Below, piece after piece: positions 2,168 through 19,797 of a stretch of 28,030 nt of DNA. Source of the DNA: a virus. The translations under genes were made by a program, and so were the position numbers. The notes below the pieces were generated by a model. It was not told where the DNA came from. It saw only the letters and a list, made by a program, of their open reading frames with translations, and searched no databases. Location of the stretch: positions 1 to 28,030 of IMG/VR virus record IMGVR_UViG_3300042691_025327; one strand, 5' to 3'. Position 1 is the first letter of the stretch; each line of letters opens with the position of its first letter.

Positions 2168-3531
2168 ATTATACTACAAATTTAGATGAATATTATGAAA
2201 TAAAAACTAGTTTTGATGGAGTAACTTATCATAAAGTTAATGAGAAAAATAATATAGATGATGGAATTTATATTAATAAAAACTATGATAAAGTTGTTTT
2301 AGTTGCCTATGAATATAGTTCTGGGGGAAATTTTTTAATAAATTCTTTATCTCTTAGTGATGATGTTTGTTCTTCTTTTAATTCTATTAAAGAAAAGGAG
2401 GAATATTTTAATAAAAGTTTAAATGATATAAATTTGTATTGGTCAGACTTTACTATTTGTGATAAATTTTTTACTTATGAAGATATTAAAAATAATAATA
2501 AAGAAAAGTATTTTTTCATATTTACACATATTGTTGATAAAGAAGAAACTAAGTCTCAAATAAATTATCATTTAAAACGTTTAAAAAATTGTAAAGTAAT
2601 ATATTTCGTAAACTCACATCTTTTTGTTAAATTAAGAAGGTGTGTTCATAATTATAAAGGATCATATAATTTTTCTAAATTTAAATCTTTGGATAATATT
2701 AAATTTTCTGATTATTTTACATTATCAGAAAAAGATAAAACAGCACTGAAAAATAAGTATACTGATGTAAAAAAATATTCTTATTGTGATCTAAGCACAA
2801 AACAAGAAATTTATATATGGGATGTAAATTCATTTTTATCTGAAGAAGATTATTTAAATGATATAAAACAATTTTATATTGGTTTTAATTTATCCAAATT
2901 TGATGAAAAGTCTTTGAGAAAAATTTATAGATCATGGATTAAAAAACTATCTGATTTATCAGAAATTCCTATACCAAAAAAATATAAACCATGGACAGCA
3001 CTTATATCAAAGTTGTATAATGATGATATGGATTTTCTTGATGTTAGAACTAGTACATTATACCAAAATTTTGATTTCGACCTTGATAACGAAAAAGCAA
3101 TATTATTTTTGACGGAATCAAAATATGATTTTAATCTTGTTGTTAATTGTCTATCTTTTAGTAAATATGTTTCATGTTCAAAAACATTAAGATATGATTT
3201 TCTAATTGAAAACATAAATGATAGATATTTCTTTTTAAATGATTGTACCGCTGAAGGTAAATACTTTTTTATTGTTGATCATTTGTGGACTAAAAGAACA
3301 TTAAGTTTTCATAAATCACATTGGAAAAATTCAACTGTTATAGTTTGTAGTGAAAATGAATATTATAATGATTTGGCATATAAATGGGACCCTAATTTCT
3401 ATCTAAAATTGAAAGACTTTTTAATTAATATTAAAAAATTATATAATTTTCTTGGTTTTGATGATTATGATGAGGATTTAATAAAAAAATACTATATTGC
3501 ATGGATGAGTAATAAAAAAATTGACAATTAA
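2164..3531 (+). CDS. Two-repeat AT-rich protein, possible sulfotransferase-like fold
   Basis: 455 residues, coupled to the carbamoyltransferase by an ATGA overlap. It consists of two related halves. Residues about 42-60 (YDKVVLVAYEYSSGGNFL) align with about 312-330 (NEKAILFLTESKYDFNLV). KYFFIFTHIV aligns with KYFFIVDHLW, and WDVNSFLSEEDYLNDIKQFY with WDPNFYLKLKDFLINIKKLY, each followed by a Y-x-x-W helix. The first half has a strand-loop-helix with SSGG that could bind phosphate, as in sulfotransferases; the second half lacks it. The gene is extremely AT-rich (11 of 60 bases G+C in the line starting at 2161). The repeat structure is seen directly; the sulfotransferase idea is inference at perhaps one in three. 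Confidence 0.88.
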   Translation: MNYTTNLDEYYEIKTSFDGVTYHKVNEKNNIDDGIYINKNYDKVVLVAYEYSSGGNFLINSLSLSDDVCSSFNSIKEKEEYFNKSLNDINLYWSDFTICDKFFTYEDIKNNNKEKYFFIFTHIVDKEETKSQINYHLKRLKNCKVIYFVNSHLFVKLRRCVHNYKGSYNFSKFKSLDNIKFSDYFTLSEKDKTALKNKYTDVKKYSYCDLSTKQEIYIWDVNSFLSEEDYLNDIKQFYIGFNLSKFDEKSLRKIYRSWIKKLSDLSEIPIPKKYKPWTALISKLYNDDMDFLDVRTSTLYQNFDFDLDNEKAILFLTESKYDFNLVVNCLSFSKYVSCSKTLRYDFLIENINDRYFFLNDCTAEGKYFFIVDHLWTKRTLSFHKSHWKNSTVIVCSENEYYNDLAYKWDPNFYLKLKDFLINIKKLYNFLGFDDYDEDLIKKYYIAWMSNKKIDN

Positions 3532-3554
3532 AAATACTTCTGATAAATTGGATA

Positions 3555-3716
3555 ATGTCTTTTCTAAAAACTATGACCACTAAAACGCACGTACAAAAAG
3601 ATGGAACTATTTGGGAATGGATTGAAACCCCAGAACTCAAAGAATGGATTTCTGTACAAGTAGCAAAAAAGACGCTTCTTCAACTTGACGATCCTAAAGT
3701 AAAAAATAATAACTGA
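3555..3716 (+). CDS. Small hypothetical protein, 53 aa
   Basis: An open frame starting MSFLKTMTTKTHVQKDG with a Trp-rich middle (TIWEWIETPELKEWIS). It fills the gap between the two-repeat protein and the next gene, whose start lies two bases after this stop. A second in-frame ATG at 3573 is an alternative start. No family recognised. Confidence 0.6.
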   Translation: MSFLKTMTTKTHVQKDGTIWEWIETPELKEWISVQVAKKTLLQLDDPKVKNNN

Positions 3717-3718
3717 AT

Positions 3719-3925
3719 ATGGAAAAAACATTTATTGATGATGCTTTTTATGTTGAACAAAAAAGATGGGGAACATGGCAATCATATGATAAAGAAGGTA
3801 ACGGGTTATTAACATCATTAACTGAAACACAATGTATTTCTGCTACTAGATGGTATCTGAAGAAAAAACAAGAAGGATTTGATGATGTGCAGGTTTATGA
3901 AGGTGTTGTAGGTGGAAAACTCTAA
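3719..3925 (+). CDS. Small conserved-type hypothetical protein, 68 aa
   Basis: Begins MEKTFIDDAFYVEQKRWGTW and contains SLTETQCISATRWYLKKKQE. The mix of aromatic and charged residues suggests a small globular domain. It begins two bases after the upstream stop, in a run of tightly packed small genes. It resembles short proteins of T4-like cyanophages; function unknown. Confidence 0.72.
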   Translation: MEKTFIDDAFYVEQKRWGTWQSYDKEGNGLLTSLTETQCISATRWYLKKKQEGFDDVQVYEGVVGGKL

Positions 3926-4073
3926 TAATTATCCATATCATGTTTTAGATCCTACGACACCATGGTTTGAGTGGTTATCATACTGTGAATGTTGTCTTAG
4001 TTTAGGTGTTGAACCACGACTTGGTAGGTTTATGCGTTATAGAGAATATCTTAAAGAAGTTGGACTTTTATGA
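3912..4073 (+). CDS. Small hypothetical protein with GTG start, 53 aa
   Basis: Reads from a GTG at 3912, overlapping the previous gene by 14 bases, and ends in an ATGA overlap with the next gene. The product has an aromatic start (TPWFEWLSYCECCLSLG) and ends RFMRYREYLKEVGLL. The frame has no other start upstream of the conserved-looking part, so GTG is favoured. It was found by reading the gap between neighbours. Function unknown. Confidence 0.6.
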   Translation: MENSNNYPYHVLDPTTPWFEWLSYCECCLSLGVEPRLGRFMRYREYLKEVGLL

Positions 4074-4288
4074 AAGTAAGAACCAAAAAAATTATCTTTT
4101 TTTGTATTATTGCATGGGCATTTTTTACAACAATAATTAGTCTCAATTTAATGAATAGAATTACTAAATTGGAAATTAATCAAGCGTTTAATGATGAAAA
4201 TGTTAAATCTTCAATTCAAAGATTATCATATGACATACATCAACTTCGGATAAATACCACACAGTATGATGGTGAAAATTTTGAATGA
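4070..4288 (+). CDS. Small single-pass membrane protein, 72 aa
   Basis: A basic N-terminus (MKVRTKK) is followed by a hydrophobic segment at about residues 8-27 (IIFFCIIAWAFFTTIISLNL), then a hydrophilic tail predicted to be helical. By the positive-inside rule the tail would lie outside the cytoplasm. Start and stop both overlap neighbours by ATGA, so it belongs to a translationally coupled run leading to ferredoxin. Function unknown. Confidence 0.68.
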   Translation: MKVRTKKIIFFCIIAWAFFTTIISLNLMNRITKLEINQAFNDENVKSSIQRLSYDIHQLRINTTQYDGENFE

Positions 4289-17875: not shown

Positions 17876-18340
17876 ATGTACTACCTGGACATCAGCGGTT
17901 ACGGATACCGTAAAAGGGTCTGTGAGAGCGTTGTAGACTGGTTTATGAACCGATACCTGCCACGACATCACGTTGGTATTCGTCTGGTTCATCGTGGTCT
18001 AAAGCGCGAATTGGTTTATGGATGGTGTGACTTTGAAGACGACTACAAGCGTCCTCGTTCATTCTTGATTGAACTCCAATCACACATGGAGCAAGAAAAT
18101 TACATTAAAACCTTGATCCATGAGTTAGTTCATCTTCGTCAATGGGTTCTTGGTGATCTCCGCCAAAAACGGGGTAAAACTTATTATGGATCAACTGATG
18201 TTGATGAACTCGATTATGAGGACCAACCTCATGAAATCGAAGCAAGAGAGCAAGAAGAAACTCTCTACATCACTTATCTGATCGAAACTGGTCAGATGTT
18301 CCCCCAAACAAAATCGTTCCCACCATCTTCTCTGAGGTAA
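17876..18340 (+). CDS. HExxH metalloprotease-like protein
   Basis: 154 residues. The helix KTLIHELVHLRQW carries the zincin motif HExxH (His82, Glu83, His86). About 35 residues on, PHEIEAREQE offers a Glu that could be the third zinc ligand. The fold resembles small SprT-like or conserved phage metallopeptidases. The N-terminus (YYLDISGYGYRKRVCESVVD) is beta/alpha. It could process phage or host proteins; substrate unknown. First gene of the cassette that continues into the nuclease-methyltransferase pair; G+C clearly higher than the upstream glycosyltransferases. Confidence 0.8.
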   Translation: MYYLDISGYGYRKRVCESVVDWFMNRYLPRHHVGIRLVHRGLKRELVYGWCDFEDDYKRPRSFLIELQSHMEQENYIKTLIHELVHLRQWVLGDLRQKRGKTYYGSTDVDELDYEDQPHEIEAREQEETLYITYLIETGQMFPQTKSFPPSSLR

Positions 18341-18346
18341 TTAACA

Positions 18347-18946
18347 ATGAAAAAATATGACCCAAATGAATATCTTCTTGAAAATCTTCTTCCTCGTATT
18401 CTTGCTATAAAACCTGTTACTGATGAAAGTGATATTTTTGAATGTCTTGGTGGAGATCCTGAACTGACTTCACAAGCATCTTGTCGAATTCAATTTGGAA
18501 ATCAAATTGAAAGTTTTGGTAATAAAGTAATTTCTGACGTTACTACAAATTTGCTTGAGGAATCTAATTATGTTATTATTGGTGGTAAAAAGCGACAAGT
18601 AGATCATCTTTTTATTACTAAAGGTGGTGTTATTTGCTATCTTGAAAGTAAATGTAATCTTAATTTTGACAGCGAAAAAGTAATAATGAGTAATGAAAAA
18701 GTTAAAATTCTTGCAGAAAAGTTTGGAAATATAGTACCATATTACTTTGTTCCTGTCAGGAGACAACCAAGAAGGAAACATGTGGTAAAATATAAAAAAG
18801 AAGGTATTGAGGTTGTTGGTATGGAATGGTTATCAAATCAAATTGATCTTCCATTTGAAGTTGATCATTATTTTACCTTTCTTAAAGATGTTTGTGGTCC
18901 AATTATGGAGGAAAAGGGTATGATTCTTAAGGATTTGAGGAAATGA
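18347..18946 (+). CDS. PD-(D/E)XK nuclease candidate, possible type II restriction enzyme
   Basis: 199 residues. The centre has KKRQVDHLFITKGGVICYLE followed by SKCNLNFDSEK: Asp86, Glu100 and Lys102 arranged as D-x13-E-x-K on neighbouring strands. This is the hallmark of PD-(D/E)XK nucleases, and an upstream helix offers Glu55 (GNQIESFGNK). The length and gene order (nuclease then methyltransferase, ATGA overlap) suit a type II restriction enzyme paired with the adjacent Dam-type enzyme. It could instead be a repair or host-DNA-degrading nuclease. Recognition site cannot be read from sequence. Confidence 0.72.
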   Translation: MKKYDPNEYLLENLLPRILAIKPVTDESDIFECLGGDPELTSQASCRIQFGNQIESFGNKVISDVTTNLLEESNYVIIGGKKRQVDHLFITKGGVICYLESKCNLNFDSEKVIMSNEKVKILAEKFGNIVPYYFVPVRRQPRRKHVVKYKKEGIEVVGMEWLSNQIDLPFEVDHYFTFLKDVCGPIMEEKGMILKDLRK

Positions 18947-19797
18947 AACCTATAATTAAATATCAAGGTGGCAAATCTCGTGAAATTAAATTCATCAAGG
19001 AGATTATGCCACCCTCTTACAATCGAATTATCGAACCTTTCTGTGGAGGGGCAGCAGTGTCCTTCCATTTTGGTGTTCCAGCAATCCTTTCCGATGTCAA
19101 TTGGCAAGTAATTAACCTTTATGGTCTTGTTGCAAGTCCAGTTTACGAAGATCTTCAACGATTTGTAGATCAAGTGAAGACATTTGATCATGATCAGTTA
19201 GAAAAACTGTTTTATCATTCACGAAGCGTGATCAACGATCAAAAGTCCCACAGTCCATTTGAAAATGCAACCGCATACATTATTGTAAGGCAACTGTGCT
19301 TCAGTGGCATGGAACGTTATAGTAGCAAGGGTGAATTCAATGTTCCCTTTGGACATTACAAGACATTTTCTTGCAATCTATCAAAAGAGCATCATGACTT
19401 CTTACTAAAATGTAAGATTTCTCATGCTTCTTTTGAGCAGTGTTTCAAATACGATACTGAGAATGACTTTATCTTCATTGATCCACCTTATCTTGACCGC
19501 CTTGGTTATACCACTGGTGATGGTGGTTTAAACCTACACGAAGAACTTCTAGGTTGCCTCAAGACAACATCTGCAAAGTGGATGATCGTTCATTCCGATC
19601 ATGAATTCTATCGTGATAGTTATAAGGATTATAATGTCATGACAAAGGATTTCTTATATTCTCAACGCTTTGGTAGAGGTAAGGATCATAGTGGTGCAAG
19701 TGTGCAGCATTTGTATATCACAAACTACGATGCTGTGCCAGGTAACAAACTGGTACAACAGGTTGCCAATCCACTAGCAGATGTCCTATACTCATAG
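18943..19797 (+). CDS. dam: Dam-type (D12 class) adenine-N6 DNA methyltransferase
   Basis: 284 residues, full length for the class (E. coli Dam 278). The motif order is that of alpha-class enzymes: motif X KYQGGKSREI (6-15), motif I EPFCGGAAVSF (31-41) for SAM binding, acidic Asp51-Asn53, the Dam signature RYSSKGEFNVPFGHYK (125-140), and catalytic DPPY (180-183). Dam enzymes methylate adenine, classically in GATC; that this one does so is inferred from the signature only. It overlaps the nuclease candidate by ATGA, so the two are made together. It may protect phage DNA from the neighbour or from host restriction. Confidence 0.93.
   Translation: MKPIIKYQGGKSREIKFIKEIMPPSYNRIIEPFCGGAAVSFHFGVPAILSDVNWQVINLYGLVASPVYEDLQRFVDQVKTFDHDQLEKLFYHSRSVINDQKSHSPFENATAYIIVRQLCFSGMERYSSKGEFNVPFGHYKTFSCNLSKEHHDFLLKCKISHASFEQCFKYDTENDFIFIDPPYLDRLGYTTGDGGLNLHEELLGCLKTTSAKWMIVHSDHEFYRDSYKDYNVMTKDFLYSQRFGRGKDHSGASVQHLYITNYDAVPGNKLVQQVANPLADVLYS

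Follow-up and report, generated by a model that had tools for sequence, protein, structure and literature searches.

The window, i.e. the whole stretch of DNA analysed here, is a 28-kb fragment from IMG/VR; T4-like cyanophages are its relatives, and it is taken to come from a virus of marine cyanobacteria. A sequence-only reading of it had proposed that two of its genes may form a complete restriction-modification (R-M) pair, and both open reading frames, each of which starts with ATG, were recovered where that reading had placed them, together with their four-base overlap at 18943-18946. The features of the locus are as follows.

18347..18946, + strand: putative restriction endonuclease, 199 aa, predicted PD-(D/E)XK fold, phrog_26553, referred to here as family A (phrog_26553 match 1.5e-53, alignment, predicted structure)
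18509..18511, + strand: codon of Glu55, an acid that does not vary and lies in the long helix preceding the core (37/37)
18602..18604, + strand: codon of Asp86, catalytic candidate (37/37)
18644..18652, + strand: codons of Glu100-Ser101-Lys102, the ExK motif (37/37)
18943..18946, + strand: ATGA, in which the stop codon of the nuclease overlaps the start codon of the methylase
18943..19797, + strand: N6-adenine DNA methyltransferase of the D12 class (Dam family), 284 aa, member of the cassette clade
19288..19362, + strand: target-recognition stretch of the methylase, RQLCFSGMERYSSKGEFNVPFGHYK (residues that align with T4 Dam are conserved; the stretch hardly varies within the clade)
19480..19491, + strand: DPPY catalytic motif of the methyltransferase

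A gene for a SprT-like putative metallopeptidase (phrog_10499) lies immediately upstream of the two (17876-18340), and a homologue of it also precedes the pair in locus L047.

The family to which the 199-residue protein belongs, phrog_26553, has no known function. Asp86, Glu100 and Lys102, which had been picked out as candidate PD-(D/E)XK residues, do lie at the positions claimed for them, in QVDHLFI...YLESK, and to these can be added a fourth conserved acid, Glu55, that had not been recognised; all four are invariant in an alignment of 22 relatives, and all are kept in every member of a wider set (37 of 37). Structure prediction, which had been suggested as a check, yields an AlphaFold model (pLDDT 83.5, pTM 0.81) in which a PD-(D/E)XK core is present, and which matches the solved structures of the PD-(D/E)XK enzymes Card1/Can2, EndoMS, EcoO109I, PspGI, EcoRII and FokI. 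By Z the best of these is EcoO109I, a type II enzyme (Z 7.0 over 179 aligned residues, rmsd 4.8), which shares 10% identity; matches within 1 Z of one another (EcoO109I, EndoMS and Card1) count as tied, and a Z under 8 is evidence for a shared fold only. On the strength of the model and of the invariant E55, D86, E100 and K102, nuclease A qualifies as a predicted member of the PD-(D/E)XK nuclease superfamily.

Comparison with profiles of restriction-enzyme families, another check that had been suggested, was less favourable, in that no curated model reached its cut-off. Pfam gave no family above cut-off for nuclease A (NERD, 0.0033) and the HinfI profile match was weak (0.012); the HinfI family NF045831 gave a weak match in the region of the catalytic core for 10 of the 22 members (best E 8.8e-4), and the 15 bits scored by nuclease A fall far short of the 175 that membership of that family requires. 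Nuclease A is also smaller than HinfI, the methylase of which is of another class. A PDB search using the nuclease A sequence and profile returned nothing convincing, while BFVD gave a match to A0A6G6XMY6 (TM 0.53, 24% identity). Further relatives were not found by permissive tblastn, nor were family A homologues found when sought on bacterial chromosomes and plasmids; among annotated phages nuclease A occurs in S-CAM8 and S-WAM2 only, with 46-47% identity to the window protein. At one locus (L011:1349-2752) two diverged copies stand in tandem, the catalytic residues being intact in both, and at another (L028:1407-1895) a solitary nuclease A has a further PD-(D/E)XK gene (PDDEXK_11, 1.5e-8) in its vicinity.

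The second gene had been described as encoding an intact Dam-signature methyltransferase, a description borne out by a TIGR00571 (Dam) score of 171 bits (cut-off 114.85), a MethyltransfD12 match of 9.6e-41 and the presence of DPPY; judged by its sequence, it is a bona fide Dam-family D12 methyltransferase. Among annotated phages, its closest relatives are the proteins labelled “DNA adenine methylase” in S-CAM8 and S-WAM2 (57-58% identity). In a maximum-likelihood tree these “cassette” Dams group together, well apart from the distinct core Dam carried by most cyanophages, and both types are present in S-CAM8, S-WAM2 and the contigs G011, G016 and G017. T4 Dam is a distant homologue; it and the other orphan phage Dams, for which we know of no partner nuclease, belong to the same D12 family and share the same conserved recognition residues. 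The core “Dam” of S-WAM2, S-CAM8 and G011 (L032, L033, L041) reads KCSFSGL.E.SSFS.QAS.SNFS, and because it is without the RY..G.FNVPFG recognition stretch of true Dams it may, despite its annotation, not be GATC-specific. One clade of cassette Dams (L093-L115), known from short contigs, has no adjacent nuclease; in its neighbourhood are a helicase and a gene resembling a halogenase or an oxygenase, and GATC (0.49) is depleted there as well as GANTC.

The adjacency of nuclease and methylase noticed in the window is not due to chance, since dN/dS between the window and locus L005 is 0.07 for the nuclease and for the methylase alike, and since the same order, nuclease A followed by methylase, recurs in S-CAM8, in S-WAM2 and in many IMG/VR contigs. 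When loci were sought through the nuclease, the methylase lay directly downstream of nuclease A in 19 of 27 informative cases. A consistent lack of a methylase beside the homologues would have counted against the R-M interpretation, as would a predicted structure without the PD-(D/E)XK core, and neither was seen. Two further nuclease-like families, B and C, each searched for in its own right, lay only beside a cassette methylase, in 12/12 and 8/8 loci respectively. When the search started instead from the methylase, 62 of the 77 loci with upstream sequence adjoined a nuclease or nuclease-like gene. The 80 IMG/VR loci so collected, not all of them independent, comprise 49 with an adjacent A-type nuclease (upstream, except in L120, where it is downstream), 3 with family B, 7 with family C, 2 with an HNH gene, 1 with another PD-(D/E)XK-like gene, 15 with no adjacent nuclease and 3 that are cut off. 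Linked REase and MTase genes are a criterion for a Type II R-M system, and this criterion is met.

Eight nuclease A loci are seemingly solitary (L007, L008, L010, L011, L012, L017, L018 and L028), and solitary copies are also under purifying selection. Among the contigs with a solitary nuclease only G008 reaches far enough to be informative, and on it a cassette-type Dam (1.3e-128) is found at a distance of 8.4 kb; on the corresponding side of the nuclease G005 extends for a further 5.1 kb and G006 for 1.3 kb, and the remaining solitary loci are on contigs of 6-15 kb. These loci were accordingly dropped as a refutation of the pairing. On the 177-kb contig G017, nuclease A (169963-170523) and a seemingly orphan cassette Dam (3338-4150) would be some 9.5 kb apart across the ends of the record, if those ends join. 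Nuclease A is absent from the long contigs G015 and G016, in which the partner is an HNH gene of a type common in phages. The usual view of phage Dam genes is that they are orphan shields; for the window methylase this reading was rejected in view of the adjacent PD-(D/E)XK gene and of co-occurrence even when the two are unlinked.

On the tree of cassette Dams the type of partner changes between close relatives, so that unrelated nuclease-like genes are seen in one slot beside near-identical methylases: L044 and L045 have A, L046 has HNH and L047 has B, and A and B are exchanged between L082 and L084, B and A between L086 and L088, and C and A between L053 and L056. Family B is a distant relative of A (the A profile finds L058-type members at 1e-12 to 1e-17), while family C has no sequence relation to A. 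Family C can be called nuclease-like only from a VDILV...NSK motif and weak matches to BanI, UpaP162 and MTES_1575, since its AlphaFold model (pLDDT 58.7) is too poor for a fold search. Family B gave one match (L271, NHGE01000051.1) on a contig binned as the Euryarchaeota MAG TMED129; this contig carries nuclease B with a cassette Dam, resembles a cyanophage fragment and has probably been mis-binned as archaeal. Across the clade, hardly any variation is seen in the recognition stretch of the cassette Dam, from which it follows that the swapped nucleases should all share one target, if the pairs are cognate.

The nearest methylases outside cyanophages (44%) are those of the Tevenvirinae STML-198, KP179, KP182 and AShe-2020a, where the gene lies directly behind a different PD-(D/E)XK-like ORF that is restricted to those phages; this nuclease and its MTase are found in the same six phage records. 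When Salmonella phage STML-198 is compared with Melville, a 1.57-kb segment comprising nuclease and MTase is seen as a clean insertion between flanks that are 99% identical, adjoining a DenB-like gene, and on this alignment evidence the two genes were gained together as one unit. The pair of Klebsiella phage KP179 is followed immediately by a second Dam, which is of the T4 type (L043:3394-4185).

The target of the pair remains unresolved, as the methylase residues point to GATC and genomic avoidance points to GANTC. Residues of the window methylase aligned to Ser112, Met114, Arg116 and Pro126 of T4 Dam are conserved, and since we take these to be pointers to GATC in T4 Dam, they suggest that site. 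In most carriers GATC itself occurs at 0.72-1.09 of expectation, as would be expected of a protected site, but this is not diagnostic; avoidance of GATC as a signature of the pair was tried in carriers and abandoned, there being neither special avoidance nor special sparing. Among 648 words (512 of five bases and 136 of four), the two halves of GANTC, which is the site of HinfI, the family weakly matched by nuclease A, are the most depleted in cassette loci. A comparison of nine phages looked confounded and was therefore repeated with 55 environmental controls and with same-sample controls. The 55 cassette loci differed from 55 control cyanophage loci with a combined AUC of 0.05 (mean log2 -1.84 vs -0.22), and in the seven metagenomes containing both kinds GANTC stood at 0.19 of expectation in cassette loci as against 0.97 in core-Dam controls; the p-values of this depletion ignore phylogeny. 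The T-even phages were left out because the STML-198 insertion is recent. The depletion is genome-wide in carriers, the ratio in S-WAM2 being 0.14-0.40 in every chunk, with the exceptions of G003, G020, G021 and G022 (0.77-1.03). It is found also in loci whose neighbouring gene is C or HNH and in loci without a neighbouring partner, and may for that reason reflect the hosts. GANTC depletion may thus imply either a cassette directed at GANTC or restriction of this site by the hosts.

Should it be the hosts that impose the avoidance, the pair itself could be GATC-specific, a possibility compatible with an R-M module and one to which we would give slightly less than an even chance. It is favoured by the T4 Dam equivalents just described and by a pattern that looks host-driven, in that most of these phages avoid CCGG, AGCT and GGCC to an extreme degree, but it must contend with the core-Dam cyanophages of the same metagenomes, in which GANTC is not avoided, and with several references isolated on Synechococcus WH7803, in which it stands at 0.81-1.01. 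Avoidance of other words varies: T4-like cyanophages strongly avoid CCGG (often with 0 sites), AGCT and GGCC, GTAC is sometimes avoided (ratio 0.00 in S-SM1), as is CATG in G021, G015 and G016, and this suggests host restriction that differs from case to case.

With a probability of about 0.68, we interpret the pair as a compact Type II R-M module of a lytic T4-like cyanophage. The Dam-type enzyme would methylate adenine at one short site on the phage DNA, and the PD-(D/E)XK enzyme would cut the same site wherever it is unmethylated, be it on the chromosome of the host, on the DNA of phages infecting the same cell, or on both; within the family the methylase is the constant part, and the adjacent nuclease has been replaced repeatedly by others. 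Cleavage, the shared target and the biological use are inferred; the predicted fold, catalytic residues, linkage, co-occurrence when unlinked, swapping, movement as a unit in T-even phages and purifying selection were observed. The R-M interpretation of the sequence-only reading is to this extent supported, while its suggestions that the two enzymes are cognate and that the phage is protected as host or rival DNA is cut remain inference. A more specific version, in which a methylase of fixed specificity (perhaps GANTC) is the common antidote to exchangeable, unrelated nucleases, the whole being a weapon turned on the DNA of the host and on competing phages that has shaped the entire phage genome through site avoidance, is no more than a tentative possibility.

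There are also points that tell against an R-M module: no curated restriction-enzyme profile is matched above its cut-off, carriers neither avoid nor spare GATC specially, GANTC depletion extends to loci with C, HNH or no partner, and nuclease A is missing from G015 and G016. In addition, the tandem nucleases of L011, the HNH gene in the slot and the nuclease-less Dam clade (albeit on short contigs) would fit a mobile nuclease. Homing endonucleases are abundant in T4-like phages, and the nuclease could be a free-standing one that sits beside the dam gene and spreads into sister phages, the methylase being an unrelated neighbour; the HNH gene filling the same slot in L046 and L048, the swapping of partners between near-identical Dams and the existence of unlinked and tandem copies would all be consistent with this. 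We nevertheless think it unlikely, given that families B and C stand beside the methylase only (20/20), that unlinked A nucleases on long contigs are still accompanied by a cassette-type Dam, that the STML-198 genes were gained together, and that no link to introns or intronless targets was seen. Marginally less likely again is that the nuclease degrades host DNA in the manner of T4 endonucleases II/IV, unmatched to the methylase, with the phage shielded by site avoidance or some other modification and Dam having a role of its own. The DenB-like neighbour in STML-198 and the genome-wide avoidance of GANTC in carriers are in keeping with such a role; however, the 119 GANTC sites left in G011 would not be protected by avoidance alone, and linkage with one specific Dam clade would go unexplained when most cyanophages have the different core Dam.

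An R-M module is the preferred reading, and such a module has known counterparts in the Chlorella viruses, in phage NrS-3 and in nine R-M systems among 831 phages. The Chlorella virus systems CviAI (GATC) and CviBI (GANTC) combine a site-specific nuclease with an adenine methylase in a lytic virus, as here, and are thought to destroy host DNA, but the hosts are eukaryotic algae. Complete R-M systems are rare in phages, 9 having been found in 831 genomes (PMC4176335). The temperate Nitratiruptor phage NrS-3 has a verified Type II system (M.Nph3I/R.Nph3I, site RGATCY) in which, as in the window, adenine MTase and REase genes are adjacent, and its REase is blocked by m6A; unlike the window pair, its enzymes have been tested in vitro, the phage is temperate, and the part of the source available describes no partner swapping (PMC10734518). 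A literature search, from whose scope most subscription journals were excluded, found no account of such a pair in cyanophages. Matched nuclease-methylase modules, under “hypothetical protein” labels, appear to be carried by numerous cyanophages of the T4-like group and by a small number of T-even phages. If this is confirmed, several uncharacterised restriction enzymes would be on offer, and restriction-based attack on host DNA or phage-phage exclusion would become directly testable in the cultured phages S-CAM8, S-WAM2 and STML-198.
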